Assembly (NCBI GenBank): GCA_020852965.1
Contig: JADYZV010000015.1
Location: 1 to 64,000, forward strand
Length of the DNA: 64,000 nt
Reading direction: 5' to 3'
DNA from: Pirellulaceae bacterium
GTDB lineage: Bacteria > Planctomycetota > Planctomycetia > Pirellulales > Pirellulaceae
Shown here: positions 11,599 through 32,933 of the stretch, piece by piece
How positions within the stretch are numbered: position 1 is the first letter of the stretch
Layout of the letters: each line of letters begins with the position of its first letter
Program-made: the position numbers and the translations under genes
Notes under the pieces: generated by a model
Databases searched by the model: none
The model's input: the letters and a program-made list of their open reading frames with translations, nothing else
Told to the model about the DNA's origin: nothing

Positions 11599-11645
11599 AG
11601 GAGGAGCTGGGAGTGGCACCGCTCCCAACTCCCAACTCCCAACTA
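11599..11645. repeat. GGGAG/CTCCC hairpin array, copy 1
   Basis: GGAGGAGCTGGGAG followed by the short loop TGGCACCG and three CTCCCAA units make a near-perfect hairpin between the convergent ends of arsS and the 12.8-kb CPV/CCxGC gene. The array ends 3 bp from the stop codon of the latter. The loop TGGCACCG recurs as TGACACCG in the copy at 32.9 kb, which suggests a common origin rather than independent slippage. Confidence 0.85.
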
Positions 11646-12878: not shown

Positions 12879-15800
12879 CTAAGCGGCATTGATCAGTTCC
12901 TCTTTCTCAACTGTAGACATTTCTTCCGTACCTTCCCAGAGCGGATCACTAAACCCAAATCGCATCTTGAATTCGAGGTAAGCCGAGTACAGGGTGGGCA
13001 CGATGAACGATGTTACTGGCTCGGCTAGCATCCCGCCGAACACCGGAATCGCCATTGCGCGGGCCACATCGGCTCCGCGACCGGTCGCGAGCAAGACCGG
13101 AATCAAGGCAGCTAGCGTGGTGACAGTCGTCATCATGCAGGGGCGGATGCGTTTTAGTCCCGCTTCATAAACGGTGTCACGGATGTCCTGAACACTGGAA
13201 ATTTTCCGCCTTCGCAACAGTTGGTGAATGTAGGTCGCCATCACGACACCATCGTCGACGGCTAAACCAAACAGTGCGATAAAGCCGACCCAAACAGCCG
13301 TATTCAATTCCACTTCCATCCATGCCACCAGGATCATTCCACCCGCGAATGCAACTGGGATACCAGTGAACACGGCCATCGCGATCGGCAAATTGCGAAA
13401 CTCTATATAGATCAACAGCAGGTTGATCAGAATCACGACCGGAATGATCCACATCAAACGCAAATTAGCTTCGATTTGATTGCGAAAGCTGCCGACGGAT
13501 TCCAGAGAGTAACCGGCTGGTAGAACGAGGGAGGGGGAGTTGGGAGTGGAGGAGTGGAGGAGCTGGGAGCTAGGAGTCGGGAGTGGAGGAGAAAGGTGCT
13601 GACTCCCAGCTCCTCCACTCCCAACTCCCAACTCCCAACCTCCCGTCTGAGCATCTTGCAGTTCTTTTTCTATCGCAGCAATAGATTCCAAAGCACCTCT
13701 GACTCCACTGGGCATGAAGGCGACATGAGCAACCAAACGCCCATTCTCACTATTGATGGCTCCCGGTCCCCAAGTCGTTTCCAACGTGGCTAACGCTTCT
13801 AGCGGCACCACCGCACCACTGGCTGTCACCACCGGCAGTCGCGATAATTGGTCGATGCGTTCGCGAAGGTCACGGTTGTAGCGCAGCCTTACCGGATAGC
13901 GCTCGCGGCCTTCCACCGTTTTGATCAAATTCATTCCGCCGAGTGCAGTTTCGATGACTTGATTGACCATCGAAGTGCTCATGCCGTAGCGTGAGGCGGC
14001 TTCGCGATTGACCGTAAATTCAATGTACGGCTTCCCCAGCACAATATCTGGATTTACTGTGCCTGCGTTTACATACGAAGACTTCTTGAGCTGCGCCGCG
14101 ACGTCCATAGCCGCCTTAGCCAGTGTCTTCAAGTCGTCTCCATAGATGCGGATTGCCATCGGAGCCTTGATGCCAGACTGTAACATCACGACACGGCCTT
14201 CGATCGGTTGCAAGGCTGCGGCCGGCGTGACGCCGGGAAGCAGAGCAACGCGATTAATCTCGTCCCAAACATCGCGCGAGGTGACGCCTTCGCGCCATTC
14301 ACTCTCTGGCTTGAGCATCACATACGTCTCGATCATCCCCGCCGGTGCTGGATCGAGGGCTGATTCGGCACGGCCAATTTTCCCCATCACCTCTTTAACT
14401 TCTGGGATCTGGCCGATCAACACGTCCTGCGTTTGCAGTATCTGCATGGCTTGTGAAAAGCTAGCTGCTGGGTAGAGCGTCGGCATGTAGAACCAACTCC
14501 CTTCGTCCAATGCAATCCAGTCATCGCTTTGCAATCCCGTAAAGATATGCTTGGCATCGATATAACCTGGGAAGTCATTCAATTCCGCGCCTAGCACTCG
14601 CGCGACCTTTTCGACAGGCTGCAAAATCACTGGCATGCCAAAGAAGGCACCGACCCCCACGAATAGCAAAATCAAAGGGAACGATAAAGCGAATGCTTTA
14701 TGCTGCAAGGCGTGTTTCAATCGCGCCGCATAGATCCAGTGAATAAGACGACTGGTCGGAATTTCCTCAATTGGGCGAATGCGTTCGCGAAACAATTGCC
14801 ACCCGAATAGAAATGCGAGCAATCCGGCTGCCAGCGTGACGATCCATGGCTCAGTTCCGAAATAGATGGCCACCCTGTCACTCCACATCCAGTGCAAAGT
14901 CGCACCGACCAACCCGGCGAACGATAATCCCGACACGAGTGCCGTCCACCTACGATAGTTCGCGCTCCTTAAAAGCAAACGACTCAGCGCAGGTACCAAA
15001 GTGACAGCCGTGATCATCGCTGCGGCGATTGCAAACGTCTTGGTAAAGGCAAGCGGCGAAAACAATCGATAATCCCGACCGGTCAGGAAAAACACCGGCA
15101 GGAAGCTAACAATCGTCGTAGCCACCGCCGTCACCACCGCTGGAGCCACTTCGATCGTAGCTTCGTAGACAATTTTGCTTCGCGTCTGTTTGGTGGAGCG
15201 AGGAGTGGGGAGTGAAGGAGTGGAGGAGCTGGGAGCTCGGAGTGAAGGAGTGGCGGAGGCGGGAGCTGGGAGTGAAGGAGAAACGTACTGGCTCCCAGCT
15301 CCTCCACTCCCAACTCCTCCACTCCCAACTCCCTTCTCCCATTCCGCAAGATGCTGATAAATATTCTCCGATACAATAATCCCCATGTCGACCATTGTGC
15401 CGATGGCAATTGCGATTCCCGCTAGCGACATGATGTTGGAGCCAACACCGACGACGTGCATGGCAATGAAAGACATCAACACTGCGACGGGCAAGCAGAT
15501 AGCAACGACGAAGCTACTACGAATATGTAGCAAAAAGAGCAAGATAATAATGGCGGTAATGATAATTTCGTCACGCAGCGCATGGGTCAGCGTCGCCATG
15601 GTCTCGTCGATCAATCCGCTGCGATCGTAGACGGCGTGCAGCGTGACTCCCTTCAACGCTGGTTCAATTGCCGCGATCTTCGCTTTGATCCGATCGATAA
15701 CGACGCGCGGATTCTCTCCGTATCGCATGACGACGACGCCACCGACTGCTTCGGTTCCATTGAGGTCTAAAGCACCGCGTCGAAAATCGGGGCCAAGCTG

Positions 15801-16613
15801 AACGCCGGCCACGTCACTGACACGAACCGGCACTCCGTCGCGTTGCATGATTACGGTATCTTCGATATCTCGAATGGCTTTTTCCGTGTCACCGTCGGTA
15901 CCCAGAAAGCCCTTGCCGCGAACGATGTACTCCATCCCAGTTGTTTCAACCGTCTTGGCACCGACGTCTAAATTGGAGCCCTTGACTGCCATCGCCAGCA
16001 TGTCGAGCTGAATGTCGTGGAATCTCAGCTTGTCCGGGTCGACCTCGATCTGGTATTGCCGCACGTAGCCACCGATCGAAGCAACCTCACTGACTCCTTC
16101 TACAGCTTGCAATTCATACTTCACGACGAAGTCTTGCAGGCTACGAAGGTCCGCCAAGTTCATACCTTCTGGTGGCGGTTGCAGCGTGTAGTAGTAGATT
16201 TGACCGAGTCCCGTTGCGTCGGGGCCAAGAGCTGGCACGACGCCATCAGGAAGCTGTGCGGCGGCAGCACCAAGCTGTTCCGACACACGGCTGCGCGCCC
16301 AATAAAAATCAATATCATCCTTGAAAGTGACCTGCACGAAACTCGTGCCGAACATGCTCTTACCTCGCACCGATTCGGCACCGGGTACAGCCAGTAGCGA
16401 CACGCTGAGTGGATAGGTAACTTGATCTTCAATGTCTTTAGGCGAACGTCCGGGCCAAGAGGTTAGCACGATGACTTGGTTTTCACCCACGTTGGGAATC
16501 GCATCGATGGGAACCGATTTGAAAGCAAACCAGCCACCGACAGACAGACCAATTGCCAGCATGACAACCAGCCAAGGTTCCTTGACGCAGAATTTGATGA
16601 GCAGGTTAAGCAT
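12879..16613 (-). CDS. cusA: CusA/CzcA-family heavy-metal efflux RND pump (copy 1)
   Basis: The ATG at 16611-16613 has CGGAGG six bases upstream and begins at the usual MLNLLIKFCVKEPWLVV. The longer frame only adds repeat-encoded residues. The protein is an inner-membrane proton antiporter that exports metal ions, with conserved SWPGRSPKDIEDQVTYPL, the TM4 motif GIAIAIGTMVDMGI and the late VGFIALFGLAVDDGVVMATY. At 1244 residues it is about 200 longer than typical. Two segments (residues about 424-474 and 989-1029) are low-complexity GVGSGG.../SSTPSLP tracts translated from the hairpin repeat, and extra membrane helices sit between the two RND halves near 560-630. It is co-transcribed after cusB and the four-helix-bundle gene. 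The TM4 motif is closer to Cu/Ag than to Zn/Co/Cd pumps, but the substrate is not certain. Confidence 0.9.
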   Translation of the reverse strand: MLNLLIKFCVKEPWLVVMLAIGLSVGGWFAFKSVPIDAIPNVGENQVIVLTSWPGRSPKDIEDQVTYPLSVSLLAVPGAESVRGKSMFGTSFVQVTFKDDIDFYWARSRVSEQLGAAAAQLPDGVVPALGPDATGLGQIYYYTLQPPPEGMNLADLRSLQDFVVKYELQAVEGVSEVASIGGYVRQYQIEVDPDKLRFHDIQLDMLAMAVKGSNLDVGAKTVETTGMEYIVRGKGFLGTDGDTEKAIRDIEDTVIMQRDGVPVRVSDVAGVQLGPDFRRGALDLNGTEAVGGVVVMRYGENPRVVIDRIKAKIAAIEPALKGVTLHAVYDRSGLIDETMATLTHALRDEIIITAIIILLFLLHIRSSFVVAICLPVAVLMSFIAMHVVGVGSNIMSLAGIAIAIGTMVDMGIIVSENIYQHLAEWEKGVGSGGVGSGGAGSQYVSPSLPAPASATPSLRAPSSSTPSLPTPRSTKQTRSKIVYEATIEVAPAVVTAVATTIVSFLPVFFLTGRDYRLFSPLAFTKTFAIAAAMITAVTLVPALSRLLLRSANYRRWTALVSGLSFAGLVGATLHWMWSDRVAIYFGTEPWIVTLAAGLLAFLFGWQLFRERIRPIEEIPTSRLIHWIYAARLKHALQHKAFALSFPLILLFVGVGAFFGMPVILQPVEKVARVLGAELNDFPGYIDAKHIFTGLQSDDWIALDEGSWFYMPTLYPAASFSQAMQILQTQDVLIGQIPEVKEVMGKIGRAESALDPAPAGMIETYVMLKPESEWREGVTSRDVWDEINRVALLPGVTPAAALQPIEGRVVMLQSGIKAPMAIRIYGDDLKTLAKAAMDVAAQLKKSSYVNAGTVNPDIVLGKPYIEFTVNREAASRYGMSTSMVNQVIETALGGMNLIKTVEGRERYPVRLRYNRDLRERIDQLSRLPVVTASGAVVPLEALATLETTWGPGAINSENGRLVAHVAFMPSGVRGALESIAAIEKELQDAQTGGWELGVGSGGAGSQHLSPPLPTPSSQLLHSSTPNSPSLVLPAGYSLESVGSFRNQIEANLRLMWIIPVVILINLLLIYIEFRNLPIAMAVFTGIPVAFAGGMILVAWMEVELNTAVWVGFIALFGLAVDDGVVMATYIHQLLRRRKISSVQDIRDTVYEAGLKRIRPCMMTTVTTLAALIPVLLATGRGADVARAMAIPVFGGMLAEPVTSFIVPTLYSAYLEFKMRFGFSDPLWEGTEEMSTVEKEELINAA
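13528..13647. repeat. GGGAG/CTCCC hairpin array inside cusA copy 1 (C-terminal half)
   Basis: GGGAG-type units run from 13528 to about 13593 and CTCCC-type units from about 13605 to 13647, forming two long complementary arms. The array is a multiple of three within the gene and keeps the cusA frame open. It encodes residues about 989-1029 of the pump, in the second periplasmic porter region just before the LPAGYSLESVGSF block. Confidence 0.9.
15192..15341. repeat. GGGAG/CTCCC hairpin array inside cusA copy 1 (loop after TM4)
   Basis: About 85 bp of GGAGTG/GGGAGCT units is followed by about 50 bp of CTCCCAACTCCTCCA units in the opposite sense. It is read in frame as GVGSGG...SSSTPSLPTP between ENIYQHLAEWEK and IVYEATIEVAPAV, the loop after the fourth membrane helix. 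The second CusA pump carries a related array at the same place (29308-29402). Confidence 0.9.
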
Positions 16614-17205
16614 TGTCCGCCTCCGGGTTTCCAGATGGCGAGTTGGGGAGATCGGGAGATGGGGAGTCTGGGAGTGGAGGAGCTGGGAGTGGAGGAGCTG
16701 GGAGTGGAGGAGTGGAGGAGTAGGGAGCCAGAAGACTTTCTTGATCGAGTATGGGGCAATCATTTACTATCCAATAATGTTCTCCCGACTCCTCCACCCC
16801 CGGCTTCTTCACTCCTTTCGTTTTGAAGTCAACACACCATTTTTCTGATTCATAGATCATTGCGACGATCATCCGTAGGATATCATCATAGAACTCGATG
16901 GCCTGTTTGGCAGTCTCAGCGGCGAGGTAGCTGTGTGCCTCCGCATATTCAATCCAAACTTGCGTTTCAGCCGCTTCCGCCTCAGCGGTATTGAGCGTGC
17001 TGCAAAAATGTTTCTCGTAGCGCCTCTTTCGCCATGCCTCTGCAATGTTTGCACTCGTGCTCCGAGCGGATCTTCTTACCTGATCAGTCAACGAATACAT
17101 CTCCTCACGAGGAAACAAAGTTGACAACTCGAAAATGCGCTTTCCAGCCGCAAACGACTTCTGATACACGATTAGGTCGCGATGCGTTTTAATTCTCTCT
17201 TTCAT
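16606..17205 (-). CDS. Four-helix-bundle protein (23S rRNA intervening-sequence / S23 family)
   Basis: The core of about 120 residues (THRDLIVYQKSFAAGKRIF...LTDQVRRSARSTSANIAEAWRKRRYEKHF...AETQVWIEYA) matches the S23/IVP four-helix-bundle family, small proteins first found in intervening sequences of 23S rRNA and of unknown function. The start ATG overlaps the stop of cusB (ATGA at 17202-17205), and the stop at 16606 overlaps the cusA start, so translation is coupled on both sides. The last 75 residues (GVEESG..., STPPLPAPPLPAPP) are encoded by the hairpin repeat. Inverted repeat arms flank the gene at 16641-16728 and 17242-17284. A stand-alone IVP-type gene inside an efflux operon is odd, and I suspect it arrived with the repeats. 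Confidence 0.85.
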   Translation of the reverse strand: MKERIKTHRDLIVYQKSFAAGKRIFELSTLFPREEMYSLTDQVRRSARSTSANIAEAWRKRRYEKHFCSTLNTAEAEAAETQVWIEYAEAHSYLAAETAKQAIEFYDDILRMIVAMIYESEKWCVDFKTKGVKKPGVEESGEHYWIVNDCPILDQESLLAPYSSTPPLPAPPLPAPPLPDSPSPDLPNSPSGNPEADNA

Positions 17206-17284
17206 TTGACCACTCTCTTTAGCTCGCCCTGTTGATCCATACTCCCATCTCCTCCACTCCCAACTCCCGACTTCCCCATCTCCC
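16641..17284. mobile_element. Putative repeat-bounded element carrying the four-helix-bundle gene
   Basis: The arm at 16641-16728 (GGGAG sense) and the arm at 17242-17284 (CTCCC sense) are inverted copies. From 16654 the left arm reads GGGAGATGGGGAGTC, and the reverse complement of the right arm reads GGGAGATGGGGAAGTC; both continue to GGGAG, TGGAGGAG and TGGGAG. A third arm in CTCCC sense lies at 16783-16818. The core between the outer arms is the four-helix-bundle ORF. The unit lies between the tail of cusB and the start of cusA. The outer arms could fold the intervening mRNA into one large stem, as in 23S rRNA intervening sequences. Mobility is inferred; no target duplication was identified. 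Confidence 0.5.
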
Positions 17285-19460
17285 TAACCAGCTCCCCACA
17301 TCGCAGCATCTCTTCACCCCAATACGGATTCGCGATCTCCCCGCCGGGTTGCATCCAATCACCGCCATCGCCGAGAACCATCGGACAATAGTAATGAGTG
17401 AGCGATTGAGCTGATTTGGGGCCGCGTGCCTCCACGGCGGCATGGAGCAATGCGTGACTGACGCCTCGAAAAGCCTCGCGGGCCGTTTCGATTGAGCCAT
17501 CCATGCGCACCGCTGAGCGACGCGCCTGTGCGATCTTCCTTTGAGCTGCATCAGGAACTTCCGCTGACAGCTCTAACCTAGACAAAGCTTCAAGCAGCGT
17601 ATTGAGCGCGACAGGTGGTGGAGGCAAGTCGGCCGCCAGCGCCCCCTGAATCTCAAAGTACGCATCATAGGCACGGTCGAATTCTTCCCCCGCCCGACCG
17701 GTGAGTACTACGGGTTGGCTTTCCGGCAGTTGCAGTGGTCCGGGTGGGAAGCTCGGCGCTTTGCTCGGGTCCAGCAACGACGGGTTGCCTGCAAGCTGCA
17801 TCTGCGAATCAATTAAGAAGTTGCCACTCGTGGCGACGGTCTCGCCGGCGGCCAAGCCCTCGACAATGACCGCCTCGGTATCATTCATGGGCCCAACATG
17901 TATGCGGCGAATTTCAAACCGTCCGGGTTCCGTTTCTACGTAGATCACACCGCTATCGCCCGCCAACAAAACCGAATCACGCGGAACCGTAACAACTCGT
18001 TGCTGTGGCTGCGGCTCGGCGGCGTATCCAAGTTGAACTGTCGATACTAACTCCATTCCGCATAGTGGGCATTTCCCAGGTTCATCCCGGATGACTTGTG
18101 GATGCATAGGGCTGATGAACTTGCCGGACAATGCAGGATCGTAGACCAGCGTACCGGGAATCGCCGGGACGGTAATTCTGGCGGTTGCATAGTCGCCAGG
18201 GCGCAGTTTGCCATCAAAATTCATTACTTCAACACGCACGCGAACGGTTCGCGTGCGCTGGTTGACGGTCGGATCGATGAACGCAACTCGACCGGTAAAT
18301 ACTTCACCGGGCATCGACTGAATTTCCGCTTCGACTTGCTGTCCGAAACGAACATTGGCTGCGTCATCTGGGAAAAGATCAAGCATCATCCACACGGTGC
18401 TCAAGTCGGCGATCTGCAATAGCTTTTGACCCGTCTTTACATAGTCACCTTCCACCGCTGACTTCTCGATGACAGTTCCGCTTTGCGGCGACTTAATGCG
18501 AATGCGAGACTGGGGTGTTCGACTCTTGCTCAGCGATGCGATCTGCTCGTGCGTCATGCCAAGTTCGCTTAGGTTTTCTCGTGCCATCTCCAGCATGTCA
18601 CTATTGCCAATGCTGAAGCGGCTCGACGTGCTGCTGTCTAAACTGGTGACGAATTCTGTCTGAGCCGAATAGAGTTGAGGGCTATAGATCAACGCTAAAT
18701 CGTCCCCATCAGAGACCTTGATCCCCACGTAATTGGCATACATCTTTTCGAGCCGTCCATCGATGTAGGCGGATATTGTGGAGAGATGACTTTCGTCGAA
18801 ATCGATCGAGCCGATCGTGCGAATGGTGCGCGTCATCTCGCCCAGCTTGGACGTGGCGGTCTGGATTCCAACTAGGCGACGTGCCGCCGCTTCGATCGTG
18901 ACCGAGATTCCATCACCGCCGCCGTCGCCGGTAGCCTCAACCAGCTCCATTGCACACACTGGGCAACGGCCAGGTTCTGTCGATGGCGGTGTACACATCA
19001 TGGGACAGATGTAGCGTTTATCCTCGCCACCACCAGCGTCGCTCACGCTCTGCGCCGCGTTGCCACTACCAGAAATGCCGCCCGCGGTGATCCACTCCGA
19101 GCGCTGCGCCAAACCAATCATGACCAGAAGAACTGCCCCGACTGCGACGACCATGGCTGATTTCAGCCCAAAACGAACTAACCAGCTCCAACCACCAAGA
19201 CGTGACTCGGCGAGAGCCGACGAAACCGGCATGGGTTGCTTGCTAGTTGAACTCTTATTGGCCGAAGTGACGACAGCGTCCAGCGAGTCATCCACTTGTG
19301 GTGGTGCCGAGTCTTTCGATTCGGATTGAATCACTGGCTCAATATCTGCGCCCCCATCCGAAAGCACTTCAGCCGGTTGCTTATCTGCGACCGAATGCTT
19401 GCTACTTGCCTCGTCAATTTGCTTGTCGTCTGACTTCATTTCGATATCTCGCAAGTGCAT
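17202..19460 (-). CDS. cusB: CusB-type periplasmic adaptor with heavy-metal-binding domains (copy 1)
   Basis: The ATG at 19458-19460 or the one at 19437-19439 could start this protein of about 750 residues. An N-terminal cytoplasmic Ser/Asp-rich stretch precedes one membrane helix (SAMVVAVGAVLLVMIGLA). HMBD motif 1 is YICPMMCTPP...CPVCAMELV, followed by the lipoyl/beta-barrel adaptor core (VEGDYVKTGQKLLQIADLSTVW) and HMBD motif 2, FISPMHPQVIRDEPGKCPLCGMELV. A C-terminal domain ends with YYCPMVLGDG...NPYWGEEMLRCG. It bridges the CusA pump and an outer membrane channel and may hand over metal ions. The last residues (KSGVGSGGDGSMDQQG) are repeat-encoded, and the stop overlaps the next start. 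Confidence 0.88.
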   Translation of the reverse strand: MHLRDIEMKSDDKQIDEASSKHSVADKQPAEVLSDGGADIEPVIQSESKDSAPPQVDDSLDAVVTSANKSSTSKQPMPVSSALAESRLGGWSWLVRFGLKSAMVVAVGAVLLVMIGLAQRSEWITAGGISGSGNAAQSVSDAGGGEDKRYICPMMCTPPSTEPGRCPVCAMELVEATGDGGGDGISVTIEAAARRLVGIQTATSKLGEMTRTIRTIGSIDFDESHLSTISAYIDGRLEKMYANYVGIKVSDGDDLALIYSPQLYSAQTEFVTSLDSSTSSRFSIGNSDMLEMARENLSELGMTHEQIASLSKSRTPQSRIRIKSPQSGTVIEKSAVEGDYVKTGQKLLQIADLSTVWMMLDLFPDDAANVRFGQQVEAEIQSMPGEVFTGRVAFIDPTVNQRTRTVRVRVEVMNFDGKLRPGDYATARITVPAIPGTLVYDPALSGKFISPMHPQVIRDEPGKCPLCGMELVSTVQLGYAAEPQPQQRVVTVPRDSVLLAGDSGVIYVETEPGRFEIRRIHVGPMNDTEAVIVEGLAAGETVATSGNFLIDSQMQLAGNPSLLDPSKAPSFPPGPLQLPESQPVVLTGRAGEEFDRAYDAYFEIQGALAADLPPPPVALNTLLEALSRLELSAEVPDAAQRKIAQARRSAVRMDGSIETAREAFRGVSHALLHAAVEARGPKSAQSLTHYYCPMVLGDGGDWMQPGGEIANPYWGEEMLRCGELVREMGKSGVGSGGDGSMDQQGELKRVVK

Positions 19461-22114: not shown

Positions 22115-22197
22115 GTTGGGAGTTGGGAGCTGGGAGCTGGGAGTGAAGGAGTGCCGCTCCTCCACTCCCAACTCCTCCACTCCTCCACTCCCAGCTC
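22113..22197. repeat. GGGAG/CTCCC hairpin array at the stop codon of the outer membrane channel gene
   Basis: The array starts with GAGTTGGGAGTTGGGAGCT inside or directly after the TGA stop, passes a short loop (TGCCG) and returns through CTCCTCCACTCCCAACTCC units. The arms are about 40 bp each and largely complementary, so the transcript could fold into a strong hairpin at the end of the gene. Confidence 0.9.
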
Positions 22198-25301: not shown

Positions 25302-27644
25302 ATGAATCGAATGAACGAATTCTATCAGCAGCATCGTGGCAAGCTCTGGATCGCACAGGCCGTTGGGTTGTTGCTCATGGGTCTGCTCGTAGGCTTGTAC
25401 CTGCGCGGCGACTCCACGTCATCCGCGGTAAATGAACATGCTGCACACGCTGCAGATAGCCCATCTGGGAAAGATGCTGAAATCTGGACTTGCTCAATGC
25501 ACCCGCAAATCAGACGCGATGGTCCAGGAAGTTGTCCGCTTTGCGGCATGGACTTGGTCCCAGTCAAGCAATCGACCGGCGGAGTGCGTACTATCTCCAT
25601 TGGTGCGAATATCAAGAAGCTGATGAATGTGCAAACCGTCCCAGTGACGCGGAGGTATGTTACAGCCAACGTGCGGATGGTCGGCAAAGTCGATTACGAC
25701 GAGACGCGGCTTGCCTATATAACCGCTTGGGTGTCGGGGCGTTTGGATCGCTTGTTCGTCGACTTCACGGGAGTCGAGGTCAAGAAGGGCGACCACATGG
25801 TTTACATCTATAGCGAAGAGCTCTACACCGCACAGGAAGAGTTAATATCTGCAACACAATCCAGCGCACAACGGCCTTCGTCGCGGTTTATCGAGCCCAT
25901 CGATTTAGCAGAATCCGCGCGCGAGAAACTGCGACTGCTTGGAATCACAGAGAGTCAGATTCAAGAGATTGAACAAAGTGGCAAATCAAATGACCACATC
26001 ACGATCTACTCGCCAGTCGGTGGCATCGTCATTCAAAAGCTTAAACAGGAAGGGGATCGAGTTCGCACGGGAGACCGTATTTACACAATCGCCGACCTTA
26101 CCCAATTGTGGGTCCTGATGGATGCCTACGAATCGGATCTCACATGGTTGCGTTACGGACAAGACATCGAATTCACGACGGAAGCATATCCTGGCGAGGT
26201 CTTCCACGGTAGAGTCGCGTTCATAGATCCGATTCTCAATGGAGCAACCCGAACGGTCAAAGTGCGTATCAACGTCTCCAATGAAGATGGACGTTTGAAA
26301 CCGGAGATGTTCGTACGTGCGGTCGTGCGCTCCAAGATCGCTGCAGGCGGTCGTGTACTCGATGCATCGCTAGCGGGAAAATGGATCAGCCCAATGCACC
26401 CGGAGATCGTCAAGGATGAACCAGGGAATTGCGATGTTTGCGGTATGCCTTTAGTTCGCGCAGAGTCGCTTGGCTATGTCACTGCCGAACCAAGCGACAC
26501 GGCAAAGCCACTCGTGATCCCGGTATCGGCAGCCTTGCTGACAGGCACGCGGGCAATTGTCTATGTGCAGGTTCCCGACGCCGAAGAGCCGACCTATGAA
26601 GGGCGTGAAATCGTGCTCGGCCCGCGCGCAGGTGACTACTACCTCGTCAAAACGGGCCTGGAAGAAGGTGAGTTGGTTGTGACCAACGGTAATTTCAAGC
26701 TCGACAGCGCACTACAGATTTCTGCCAAACCGTCGATGATGACACCCGATGGCGGTGCTGCGAGCGAAGAGCACCATCACGGTAGCGACGCGATGTCGAA
26801 CGGGAAAGATGGCGAGAGGATCGACCATTCGGCAATGTCGCTGCCGCCACAGGTAAACCAGCAAATGATTGCGGTCCTGGATGCGGTCTATGCAATCGAG
26901 GTGGCGATCGAAGAGGCCGAGCTGAAAGGAATTCGCGAGGCATTCGCATCGCTGGATCAGCAGGTTGCGGCAGTGAACCGGCAAGCGCTGTTGGGTGACA
27001 TGGCGGCGCAGTGGGGCGAGTTTGCGATGTTGCTGCGGAACGACTCCGTCGAAGGCGCAAGTATCAAGTCGCTCCAAGAGGCGGACCGCGTGTTTTTGGT
27101 CACGAAAGATCATGCAAGGCGCTTGCAAGCGATGTTCGGCGTTTCCTATCCGAAGCACGAGCTACCGGTGGAAACGCTCGAAGTGCCGGTGGAGTTCCGA
27201 CAGCAACTCGATCGGCTCTTGTCTCCCTATTTGGTGATCGCTGAAGGGCTCGCGTCGGATGATTTTGGGGCGGCCACGGCAGGCGTTGACCCATTGCGAC
27301 AGTCGTTGAGTTCGATCGACGGCAGTAGCATCGACTCGGCAGTTGGCGAGCGATGGCAAGCCGAGCAAAAAGGCCTGTCCTCGATCGTTGGGCGACTATC
27401 GAGAGCCAGCGATTTAGACTCGATACGCTCGGCATTTGCATTGCTTTCCGAGGAAATGCTAACGATCCAGCGCACGTTTGGCTTCCAGAGTGCGAATCAG
27501 TTGTTTGAGTTGCACTGCCCAATGGCCTTCGATGGACGTGGCGCAACTTGGCTTCAAGCCAACGACGCCGTTCGCAATCCCTACTACGGAGCTTCGATGC
27601 TGAAGTGTGCGGATAAGGTTGAAAAGTTGGCAGTGGAGGAGTGA
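25302..27644 (+). CDS. cusB: CusB-type periplasmic adaptor with heavy-metal-binding domains (copy 2)
   Basis: The 780-residue protein starts with one membrane helix (LWIAQAVGLLLMGLLVGLYL). It then has HMBD 1 (WTCSMHPQIRRDGPGSCPLCGMDLVPV), the adaptor core (GRLDRLFVDFTGVEVKKGDHMVYIYSEELYTAQEE; QEGDRVRTGDRIYTIADLTQLWVL) and HMBD 2 (WISPMHPEIVKDEPGNCDVCGMPLV). Two helical DUF3347-like segments follow, then a terminal CPMAFDGRGATW...NPYYGASMLKCADK block also found in copy 1. It connects CusA2 to an outer membrane channel. The final codons (AVEE then TGA) come from the hairpin repeat at 27628. A His-rich linker (EEHHHGSD) precedes the helical part. Confidence 0.9.
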   Translation: MNRMNEFYQQHRGKLWIAQAVGLLLMGLLVGLYLRGDSTSSAVNEHAAHAADSPSGKDAEIWTCSMHPQIRRDGPGSCPLCGMDLVPVKQSTGGVRTISIGANIKKLMNVQTVPVTRRYVTANVRMVGKVDYDETRLAYITAWVSGRLDRLFVDFTGVEVKKGDHMVYIYSEELYTAQEELISATQSSAQRPSSRFIEPIDLAESAREKLRLLGITESQIQEIEQSGKSNDHITIYSPVGGIVIQKLKQEGDRVRTGDRIYTIADLTQLWVLMDAYESDLTWLRYGQDIEFTTEAYPGEVFHGRVAFIDPILNGATRTVKVRINVSNEDGRLKPEMFVRAVVRSKIAAGGRVLDASLAGKWISPMHPEIVKDEPGNCDVCGMPLVRAESLGYVTAEPSDTAKPLVIPVSAALLTGTRAIVYVQVPDAEEPTYEGREIVLGPRAGDYYLVKTGLEEGELVVTNGNFKLDSALQISAKPSMMTPDGGAASEEHHHGSDAMSNGKDGERIDHSAMSLPPQVNQQMIAVLDAVYAIEVAIEEAELKGIREAFASLDQQVAAVNRQALLGDMAAQWGEFAMLLRNDSVEGASIKSLQEADRVFLVTKDHARRLQAMFGVSYPKHELPVETLEVPVEFRQQLDRLLSPYLVIAEGLASDDFGAATAGVDPLRQSLSSIDGSSIDSAVGERWQAEQKGLSSIVGRLSRASDLDSIRSAFALLSEEMLTIQRTFGFQSANQLFELHCPMAFDGRGATWLQANDAVRNPYYGASMLKCADKVEKLAVEE

Positions 27645-27772
27645 AGGAGCTGGGAGCTGGGAGTGAAGGAGCTGGGAGACTCCTCCACTCCCAAATCCCA
27701 AATCCCAAATCCCAAATCCCAAATCCCAAATACCAAATCCCAACTCCTCCTCTCCCAGCTCCTCCACTGCCA
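27628..27772. repeat. Repeat element with perfect 14-bp terminal inverted repeats between cusB2 and cusA2
   Basis: TGGCAGTGGAGGAG at 27628-27641 recurs as its exact reverse complement at 27759-27772. Inside, GGAG-type units give way to a run of AAATCCC heptamers (about 27690-27740) and then CTCCTCCTCTCCC units. The element supplies the cusB2 stop codon and ends 10 bp before the cusA2 ATG, leaving no visible Shine-Dalgarno site for cusA2. It is the clearest bounded copy of the family. Confidence 0.9.
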
Positions 27773-27782
27773 GACTTGAATA

Positions 27783-30700
27783 ATGCCAGCCAACGAAAAC
27801 GCAGTCGACGATATTAAGGAAGCACGCCGAACACCTCTTGGCGGGATCATCTGGTTCTGCATTCACAACAAGTTCGTCGTTGCTTTGCTCGTGTTGGCCA
27901 TCGTCGGCTGGGGAGTGATGACCGCTCCGTTCGACTGGAGAGTGGGTTCCCTCCCGCGCGATCCCGTTCCGGTTGATGCGATCCCGGATATCGGAGAGAA
28001 CCAGCAGATTGTCTTCACCGAATGGATGGGGCGCAGTCCGCAAGATATCGAAGATCAAATTGGGTATCCGCTGACCGTCGCACTGTTGGGGCTGCCCGAA
28101 GTAAGGACCATCCGCAGCTACTCGACCTTCGGCTTCTCCACGATCTACGTCATTTTCAACGAAGACGCGGAATTCTATTGGTCGCGTTCGAGGGTGCTGG
28201 AAAAGCTGAATAGCCTACCGTCAGGGACGCTTCCTGAAGGCGTTCAACCAGCACTCGGGCCAGACGCGACGGCACTCGGCCAAATCATGTGGTACACGCT
28301 CGAGGGACTTGATCCCGACGGCAATCCGACGGGTGGTTGGGATCTCAACGAATTGCGAACCTACCAGGACTGGTACGTTCGCTACGCGATCACGGCGGCC
28401 GAGGGCGTTAGCGAGGTTGCGTCGATCGGTGGCTTCGTTCAGGAGTATCAGATCGACGTTGATCCCGACGCGATGCGGGCCGCTGGTGTCAGTCTGACTG
28501 ACGTCTATATGGCGGCGAGAATGTCCAACGTGGATGTTGGTGCGCGCACAATCGAGCTGAACAAAGTCGAATACATCATTCGCGGTCTAGGCTTCATCGA
28601 AGGCGTGGAAGATCTCGAAAAGGCCGTCGTCAAAGTTACTAACAATGTTCCTATCACGGTGAAGGACATTGGTAGCGTGCGTTTGGGACCTGCGCTGCGA
28701 CGCGGGGCCTTGGACAAGGCCGGAGCTGAAGCGGTCGGAGCGGTCGTCACCGTTCGCTATGGATACAACCCGCTGCAAGCGATCAAGAATGCCAAGGAAA
28801 AAATTGCTGAGGTTTCGGTAGGGTTACCCACCAAGGTCGTCATCGACTACACGCAAACGACTGCCGAGCAGGTCGACGCCTATGCCGCCGCGCATGAACT
28901 TCCTGCCACAAAGGGCATCGAACCCGTCCACGATCCTTGGGTTGCACACCTCAAGAACATACCTCGCGCGCAGTGGCCCAAGTGGATCACCACCAGCCAA
29001 ATTGGTATCGTTCCATTCTATGATCGCACCGGAATCATCCACGAGACTCTCGGTACCCTCAACACGGCACTTACCCAGCAAATCCTGGTCACAATCATCG
29101 TGATCATCGTAATGATCATGCACCTGCGCAGTTCTATCCTGATCAGCGCGTTGCTGCCGATTGCCGTCTTGATGTGTTTCATTGCCATGAAAACCTTCGG
29201 CGTCGATGCCAACATCGTCGCCCTCTCGGGCATCGCCATTGCAATTGGGACGATGGTCGATATGGGGATCATCTTATGTGAAAATATTTTAAGACATTTG
29301 GACGAATGGGAGCTGGGGGTTGGGAGTCGTGAACTTGGAGTCGGTAGCGAGCAGACTTCGACATCCAACTCTCCTTCACTCTCGGCTCCCAACTCCCCAT
29401 CTCTTATGACTCGTGGCGAAGTCATCTTCCGTGCGTCGCATGAGGTGGCAGGAGCGGTGCTGACGGCGGTGTCAACGACTGTAATTAGTTTCCTGCCGGT
29501 GTTCACCATGGTCGCGGCGGAGGGAAAACTCTTCCGACCGCTGGCGTTTACCAAGACATTTGCCCTGGTCGCATCGGTCATCGTCGCTTTGACAATCATT
29601 CCACCCGCCGCGCATGTGCTGATGGGGAGGCGATCGAAAAGAGGGGCAGACTCCAATCGCCGGCTCGGCCAAGAGGGTGCTTTGCACTTTTGGGGATTGC
29701 CCCTTTTCTCGATCATGAACATCGCATTGATCGGCGCGGGAGTCTTGATTGCCGTCCTGGTTTCGTGGTGGGCCGGTGCGATCGTCGCCAGCCTCGGGCT
29801 GTACAAGCTTCTGGAAAATCGGATTCCATCGAATTTCCAGAAGTCCGGTCCCATGATCGCCAGCGCCTTGGCAGTCATCGTCGTGACCTACATCTTGGCC
29901 GAAAATTGGCTACCCCTTGGTCCTGAAAAGGGAATGGTCCGCAATCTATTGTTTGTGGCAATTTTGATGGGAGGGCTACTTGGCTTCTTCACACTATTTG
30001 AGAGATATCTCTATGAACCGCTCCTGCGTTGGTGCTTGCGCCACAAGCTGCTTTTCCTTTCCATACCGTTAACGGTTGTGCTGCTCGGGGCTTGCGCGTG
30101 GCTGGGATTCGACAAGGTCTTCTCGTTCATTCCCAAGACGGCCTCCCAAGTGGGCATTTCGGAATCAACGTTGCGGGCGTCAAAACCGTGGGTCGCCGCC
30201 AGTTCCGCTTTCCCAGGGTTGGGCAAGGAATTCATGCCGCCCTTGGATGAAGGTTCGTTTCTGTACATGCCGACGACGATGCCGCACGCATCGATCGGCG
30301 AAGCCATGGATGTGATGCAGTTGCAAAACAAGTTTCTGATCTCGATTCCCGAAGTGGAATCGGTCGTCGGCAAAATCGGCCGGGCAGAGAGCCCGCTTGA
30401 TCCCGCGCCCATTTCAATGATCGAAACTTTTATCACGTACAAGTCCGAGTACAAGTCCGATCGGAACGGAAACCGATTGGAGTTCCGCTACGACGAGCAG
30501 GCGGGAGACTTTGTGCGGGACCAGGACGGAGAACTCATTCCCGACCCTCGCGGTCGCCCCTTTCGGCAATGGCGAGAAGAGATCCGATCGCCCGACGACA
30601 TTTGGGACAAGATCGTCGAAGCCGCCGACGTTCCAGGAACAACATCGGCTCCAAAGCTTCAGCCGATCGCCGCGAGAATCGTGATGCTGCAAAGCGGCAT

Positions 30701-32833: not shown

Positions 32834-32933
32834 GCTGGGAGTGGAGAGCTGGGAGTGAAGGAGTGGAGGAGCTGGGAGCTGGGAGCTGGGAGTGACACCG
32901 CTCCCAACTCCCAACTCCCAACTCCCAACTCCC
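32834..32933. repeat. GGGAG/CTCCC hairpin array upstream of the anti-sigma gene
   Basis: The array runs GCTGGGAGTGGAGAGCTGGG through several GGGAGCT units to the loop TGACACCG and then back through four CTCCCAA units. It lies in the roughly 500-bp divergent region between the two-module Cys-rich gene and the anti-sigma factor gene. The rest of that region (32671-32833 and 32934-33174) holds no gene that I can support. Confidence 0.9.

Follow-up and report, generated by a model that had tools for sequence, protein, structure and literature searches.

Inverted heptamer arrays pair around bacterial S23 genes and suggest a compact element with arms-only derivatives

The closest described relative of the locus studied here is the intervening sequence (IVS) of 23S rRNA. 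The passages of PMC4990558 on the Coxiella IVS report up to three tandem heptamers (GACAGAT) in front of the S23 start, in numbers that vary from strain to strain; the terminal stem measures 28 bp, and RNase III excises the IVS. The same passages describe the Coxiella S23 ORF as decaying, state S23 proteins to be without known function, and quote the Xanthomonas S23p, the solved relative 2GSC (XCC0516), as a homopentameric ring (PMC4990558).

Several other systems resemble this family in part. Short repeats with a common period of seven have been described in Xanthomonas (GGGAATC), Nostoc (GGGGAYT) and Beggiatoaceae (TAACTGA); according to the main texts, the Xanthomonas repeats form 70 and 75 convergent pairs in two genomes (PMC4692102), and mobile elements were considered as carriers of the Beggiatoaceae repeats (PMC4679880). 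Neither main text mentions S23/IVP or 23S intervening sequences, and among the matches listed in a literature search (titles and abstract openings, mostly open-access) no general link between S23 and heptamer arrays was found. REPINs are built on REP palindromes, and the RAYT protein is their suspected driver. In outline this is similar, with dispersed short inverted-pair hairpins and a single-copy protein gene as the suspected driver; however, S23 has no transposase domain, its repeats are tandem heptamers, and the arms flank the S23 gene itself. Finally, Avd of diversity-generating retroelements is a distant homologue of S23, a relationship to PF05635 that is stated in the relevant part of PMC10053308.

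The window analysed here is a stretch of 64,000 nucleotides from a Pirellulaceae bacterium (contig JADYZV010000015.1). It contains an S23/IVP four-helix-bundle gene at 16606..17205 on the minus strand (core 16864-17181) that scores well above the curated cut-offs of its family profiles (PF05635, 92.8 bits against 33.8, E 1.9e-26; TIGR02436, four helix bundle protein, 88.2 against 24). The element lies not in a 23S rRNA gene, the site of the classical IVS, but at the junction of a cusB-type adaptor gene (17202..19460, minus; PF16576, TIGR01730) and a cusA-type RND pump gene (12879..16613, minus; TIGR00914, PF00873; start ATG 16613 set from orthologues). The cusB stop overlaps the S23 start at 17202-17205, and the S23 stop (16606-16608) falls within cusA. 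In gene orientation the 5′ arm, recognized from inverted repeats, occupies 17241..17284 and is G-rich on the minus strand, while the 3′ arm, delimited from a direct-repeat family and inverted repeats, occupies 16645..16727 (left tract limits approximate) and is C-rich on the same strand. Both arms are part of reading frames rather than of spacer: the 5′ arm codes within the tail of CusB, and the 3′ arm within the C-terminal tail of S23. Of the best arm pairs, one spans 44 nt at 77% complementarity (16662-16705 with 17241-17284) and two span 22 nt each, at 95% (16669-16690 with 17241-17262) and 82% (16654-16675 with 17263-17284); an additional internal partner found among the inverted repeats (16782..16815) pairs with part of the 3′ arm. 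The arm score of the locus was 30, against a maximum of 14.5 among 2,461 shifted control positions in the window, and Rfam gave no match across positions 11000-34000. The original prediction, that complementary arms at 16654-16689 and 17242-17284 enclose an IVP-type gene within a cusB-cusA operon, thus agrees with the best inverted pairs found, and its view that these arms belong to a repeat family spread through the surrounding island is borne out by hairpins of that family elsewhere in the window.

The window element shares with the 23S IVS its protein family and the complementary terminal arms around an ORF. It differs in residing in a protein-coding operon, in having tandem arms with locus-specific units and in the existence of arms-only copies. 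Between the arms S23 is the sole ORF of at least 80 aa on its strand, with family matches of S23-/Avd-type or to unnamed families; among the same-strand ORFs scanned there was no transposase of the kind that recognizes terminal repeats, whereas gene-less copies with similar ends that are polymorphic between relatives, as expected of a transposon with MITEs, were present. Unlike the decaying ORF of Coxiella, the window S23 copy is kept by purifying selection: against the paralogue on contig C69 of the same genome its dN/dS was 0.056 at dS 0.94, compared with 0.043 at dS 1.44 for the first 400 codons of cusA. Apart from G009 with G011, the remaining S23 comparisons within the cus group were saturated at synonymous sites.

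The same genome encodes six PF05635 genes, all of which had arm scores (14 to 41.5) above the threshold of 13 set by the 99th percentile of shifted controls. Inverted arms were clear at L001, L004 and L006; at L002 (15.5) and L003 (41.5) they were present, yet the direct-orientation score was higher, and L005 was marginal, with an inverted score of 14 below a direct score of 16.5. Tandem repeats of 6- to 8-nt units flank the other S23 genes of the genome on both sides, mostly with other units. By eye these were GGGAG-type in both cus copies (L002, L004), GAGGGRC in L001, TTGGTGC with GAACTAA in L003, ATCTCAG in L005 and the hexamer TCGTGC in L006. Because the unit differs between loci of a single genome, it is not the sequence that marks the family but the short period together with the pairing of the two sides. 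The GGGAG/CTCCC motif that had been proposed as the family signature was accordingly discarded in favour of a period of about seven with a locus-specific unit.

Named genomes were scanned for S23 genes, and the best 80 of 589 confirmed loci, drawn from many phyla and one archaeal contig, were examined. At 65 of 79 loci (one was dropped for a short flank) the inverted arms scored above the 99th percentile, as set by 1,999 pseudo-gene positions shifted within these loci; 2.9% of 1,580 mismatched arm partners did so, and in direct orientation 10 of the 79 loci. Arms of S23 loci are therefore locus-specific partners, and such arms do surround IVP genes outside rRNA far more often than chance, a strongly positive outcome of the check proposed with the original prediction. 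Four short 23S motifs, used to look for a 23S rRNA context, had no match in the loci fetched to that point. For a pooled test of four sets, 169 loci were submitted, with incomplete loci left out beforehand and duplicates and loci with too-short flanks then dropped; 131 of the remaining 167 exceeded the 99th percentile and 145 the 95th, as set by 4,364 shifted controls, leaving 36 not above the 99th. The three added sets contributed 32/41 (own genome and relatives), 24/36 (paralogues in named genomes) and 10/11 (viral contigs). The last of these reflects a separate observation, that S23 genes also occur on contigs classed as viral (L116-L127).

Two lineages were then assessed with the same thresholds. 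In the Pseudoxanthomonas family (which we take to be Xanthomonadaceae) 27/28 loci passed (30 given, of which two were too short; the flanks were longer by 50 nt, and the pooled set shares one locus), and in the Sphaerospermopsis family (presumably Nostocaceae) 24/28 passed (29 given, one too short). An unrelated small antitoxin family, PF02604, gave 0/26 loci above the 99th percentile (28 given, 26 measured). A bAvd-profile control gave 4/23 (30 given, 23 measured), and three of these four are S23 proteins by their higher PF05635 scores, leaving one plain bAvd (L342). Gene and arms thus behave as one unit, in line with the original prediction that protein and repeats form one element, and the S23 gene family usually lies between two matching inverted heptamer arrays.

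The arms have a characteristic form. Among the 65 strong cases the best lag was 7 in 56, 8 in five, 6 in two and 9 in two; G exceeded C in the 5′ arm in 58 and fell below it in six; and the median paired arm length was 31 nt. Coverage by arrays with a period of seven fell with distance from the S23 gene, from 8.3% of bases within 100 nt to 4.2% at 100-200 nt and roughly 0.2% past 1.2 kb, whereas periods of 3-5 and 10-11 were absent and periods of 8 and 9 reached about 1.3% in the nearest bin. A strict array test within 400 nt of the gene was passed by 29 of the best 80 of the 589 loci. In Calothrix PCC 7103 (L279-L283) at least five identical S23 proteins lie within larger repeated segments with differing flanks, so larger repeats, too, can carry S23 as cargo; since these copies ride in larger repeats, they were rejected as proof of self-mobility.

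Orthologous sites allow the gene, the arms and the unit to be followed separately. In a set of 13 cusA loci at ≥69% identity, the four with S23 all had arms, and the nine without S23 had none on inspection of 800 nt upstream. The S23 genes of G011 and G009 are orthologous to that of the window, but their arms are built of a GGAGACAA-type unit. A similar situation was found in the nuoC-nuoD gap of Alphaproteobacteria, where six S23 genes fall within a clade of nine tips (support 0.78): L037 and L041 share GGCAGTC units, which fail to pair with the other four sets of arms (scores 7 to 10), while among those four the cross pairs scored 7 to 28 and the own pairs 18 to 28.5. S23 genes at the same site can thus have different units, each with its own arms matching. 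Between some close relatives, for example the two cus copies of the window genome, L064/L116 and L065/L080, cross pairs equal or beat the own pair. Sites of recurrent S23 occurrence, with gene names assigned by eye, include this nuoC-nuoD gap (L037, L041, L044, L052, L057, L058), carA-carB (L054, L083) and, in the Pseudoxanthomonas family, the gap preceding an accC-like gene. S23 also lies directly before a cusA-type gene with an in-frame repeat-like insert in a further genus of the window's family (L008 in G020), possibly an independent parallel.

Arms also occur as hairpins that contain no gene. Two are in-frame inserts in loops of the window cusA. That in the first loop (15195..15345) has a shorter relative in the C69 paralogue and is absent from orthologues G011 and G009a, while G009b, G007 and G012 carry shorter inserts of other sequence there; that in the second loop (13528..13648) is absent from all five of these orthologues, and the C69 insert is shorter. 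These arms-only insertions are therefore polymorphic between relatives. Further hairpins of the same repeat family lie at 32836..32933 (found by BLAST), 22117..22192 (motif positions and BLAST) and 27625..27775 (read from the sequence, with a BLAST piece at 27625-27671). Motif positions, absent from the BLAST list, indicated a more decayed copy at 29306..29400 and a possible short one at 11608..11640. With one cusA hairpin as query, BLAST returned 42 pieces in the genome, merged by hand to about 26 places including S23 arms, and about 10 of these places are on the two contigs with cus copies, which make up 1.5% of the genome. Of 20 hairpins lying away from S23 in the 80 named loci, six matched the local S23 arms best of all 80 (about 0.25 expected) and 14 did not, and the five loci holding the six locally matching hairpins contain one S23 gene each and no second copy. 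Arms-only copies and the S23 element nearby often have the same unit. A pglX-type gene in L069 contains two in-frame hairpins, and one of them, judged by eye, occupies the site of the full element in L064/L116.

Taking these observations together, we consider it probable that an S23 gene and its arms constitute one compact heptamer-armed element and that arms-only hairpins are its non-autonomous derivatives. According to the model, the element would comprise the S23 ORF and two complementary inverted arrays, mostly of 7-nt units, placed in operon gaps or long genes. We further infer that S23 binds the arms, that the element is mobile and that S23 is its driver: the protein, a pentameric ring in the solved homologue, would hold the arms, folded as RNA or single-stranded DNA, and help to copy, keep or re-insert them. 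The ring of five may match the paired arms, which are some four to five heptamers long, a suggestive parallel. Unit and arm length would turn over by slippage and fold-back copying, a proposal under which both arms would change together. Hosts would tolerate an insertion because it either fits in where genes overlap at their junction or leaves the frame of the host gene open.

The last point is illustrated by S23 genes inside other genes. A long host frame stays open through S23 at a fixed +2 offset in 10 of 133 loci (L001, L009, L012, L040, L042, L049, L053, L064, L116 and L118). For nine of these hosts the matches are to DNA-methylase families, in L042 at a score under the curated cut-off, and the tenth host is DnaE; L040 is the least certain case owing to its short N-terminal part. 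In comparison with solved structures, the 196-residue DnaE insertion is flanked by residues 579 and 582 of chain 5fku_A, which we take to be the E. coli chain, and the 147-residue L064 insertion by residues 976 and 993 of a BrxX methylase (9ewz_C). Searching the loci by tblastn with halves of the ten hosts revealed no broken nested case for those host families. Three candidates were set aside, L008 because its frame reads into the neighbouring cusA-type gene, and L127 and L167 for want of a Pfam match. Three lineages have S23 immediately ahead of the methylase motif DPACGS, the host frame staying open through S23 (L042, 4501-5800; L053, 4501-5800; L001, 1001-2400), and there are possible nested cases in the Pseudoxanthomonas family (e.g. 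L360, L366, L370). Across 123 S23 genes the +2 frame was open in 21, against 3.05 expected from synonymous permutation, and the +1 frame in one, against 2.1. Since ordinary genes in the same loci also exceeded expectation (87/820 open against 45.1), part of the +2 excess is a general codon-context effect, so that for intergenic S23 genes an open +2 frame is weakened as a proof of selection.

These nested cases bear on the suggestion that excision removes the segment from the mRNA. An RNA-processing module would have the arms form a dsRNA stem that is cut by RNase III, isolating the S23 message as in the 23S IVS, and the whole would spread by ordinary horizontal transfer. Consistent with this, folding of 16640-17290 on the minus strand predicted a strong stem with the arms paired (z = −8.3, 20 shuffles), neighbours were co-oriented on both sides in 47/74 loci, and the Coxiella stem is cut by this enzyme according to the passages on that IVS (PMC4990558). 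However, excision would not require open host frames, and the frame is open through the element at ten loci; at the window locus the arms are themselves coding. Moreover, arms-only copies have no gene to isolate, and a cut within dnaE or methylase mRNA would split the host message. Excision is thus weakened, and we regard RNA processing as an unlikely, though the least unlikely, alternative to a heptamer-armed element.

The association was also followed at the level of whole genomes. In the Pseudoxanthomonas family (119 genomes, 54 with S23 and 65 without), five or more GGGANTN triplets (three consecutive units) were found in 44/54 genomes with S23 against 12/65 without (Fisher p 2.7e-12, uncorrected for kinship), with medians of 107.5 and 0, and 10,036 of 10,582 triplet hits (95%) were in S23-bearing genomes. 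Ten of the 54 had fewer than five hits with the single pattern used. In several genomes of this family the S23 arms are built from GGGAATC/GGGATTC units. In one genome (G376) the unit of the S23 arms is GGGCTTA, a sequence covered by the reversed control pattern, and the control hits of this genome, 31 and 46, were by far the most of the 119 genomes (next highest 12 in all), an agreement in hit counts that is suggestive of the same link. In the Sphaerospermopsis family (118 genomes, 111 with S23; pattern made for cyanobacterial units) the link was weaker: the seven genomes without S23 had 0, 78, 473, 12, 7, 0 and 1 array hits, and those with 473 and 78 indicate that arrays can be abundant without a detected S23. 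Random stretches of relatives of the window genome gave one array in 400 kb with S23 and none in about 369 kb without; in the window's own lineage arrays are too rare to compare, and the genome-level link rests on the two families above.

A passive association would explain such a link differently: heptamer arrays would be tolerant or recombinogenic spots arising by slippage, and S23 genes would land there by chance. The two array-rich Sphaerospermopsis-family genomes without S23 fit this reading, as do the published arrays in whose main texts S23 goes unmentioned (PMC4679880, PMC4692102). Chance landing is nevertheless improbable, given that the arms are inverted and are locus-specific partners, that none of the 26 control loci had them and that arrays are rare in random stretches.

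Gain or loss of 7-nt units could alternatively shift a host frame on and off, making the arms a phase-variation switch. This agrees with the methylase-type domains in nine of the ten nested hosts (including L042, below the curated cut-off) and with the strain-variable unit number upstream of Coxiella S23 in the IVS passages (PMC4990558), but most of the 133 examined loci are not nested, and the ten hosts are all in open frame, openness having been the search criterion; we judge a switch to be improbable as well. The poorest account, that S23, like the related Avd, works with a reverse transcriptase encoded elsewhere, is very improbable: the window protein matches the bAvd profile weakly (22.8 bits, below the cut-off of 40) and its genome has two RVT_1 matches, on contigs other than that of the window, yet 7 of 27 S23-bearing genomes, the window genome among the 27, lack an RVT_1 match (G032, 99% complete with seven S23 matches; G035, G039 and G034; and the less complete G002, G005 and G014), which speaks against a dependence on RVT_1, and 19/23 bAvd-profile loci were not above the 99th percentile for arms and three of the four that were are S23 by score.

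The heptamer-armed element also casts the classical IVS in a different light. With its tandem heptamers and terminal stem the Coxiella IVS fits the rule of armed S23 genes, a generalization that the passages of PMC4990558 on the IVS do not draw, and the 23S rRNA IVS looks like a special case of the armed S23 element. A wider proposal, which we advance tentatively and hold to be somewhat short of an even chance, is that S23 genes drive transposase-free mobile elements found across bacteria and ending in inverted, element-specific heptamer arrays; that arms-only copies account for most unexplained bacterial heptameric repeats; that the ring-shaped S23 protein reads a period rather than a fixed sequence; that the 23S rRNA IVS is one such element caught in rRNA; and that inside genes the elements are dual-coding, with S23 in one frame and a spacer of the host protein in another.

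Heptameric repeats of bacteria have been described without an agreed source in the main texts on Xanthomonas and Beggiatoaceae (PMC4692102, PMC4679880), and the armed S23 element is a likely source of such scattered repeats in bacterial genomes. Inside genes such as dnaE, two reading frames can stay open over one stretch. A general link between S23 and the repeats makes both the function of S23 and the source of the repeats testable, with one protein, one period and many unit sequences.
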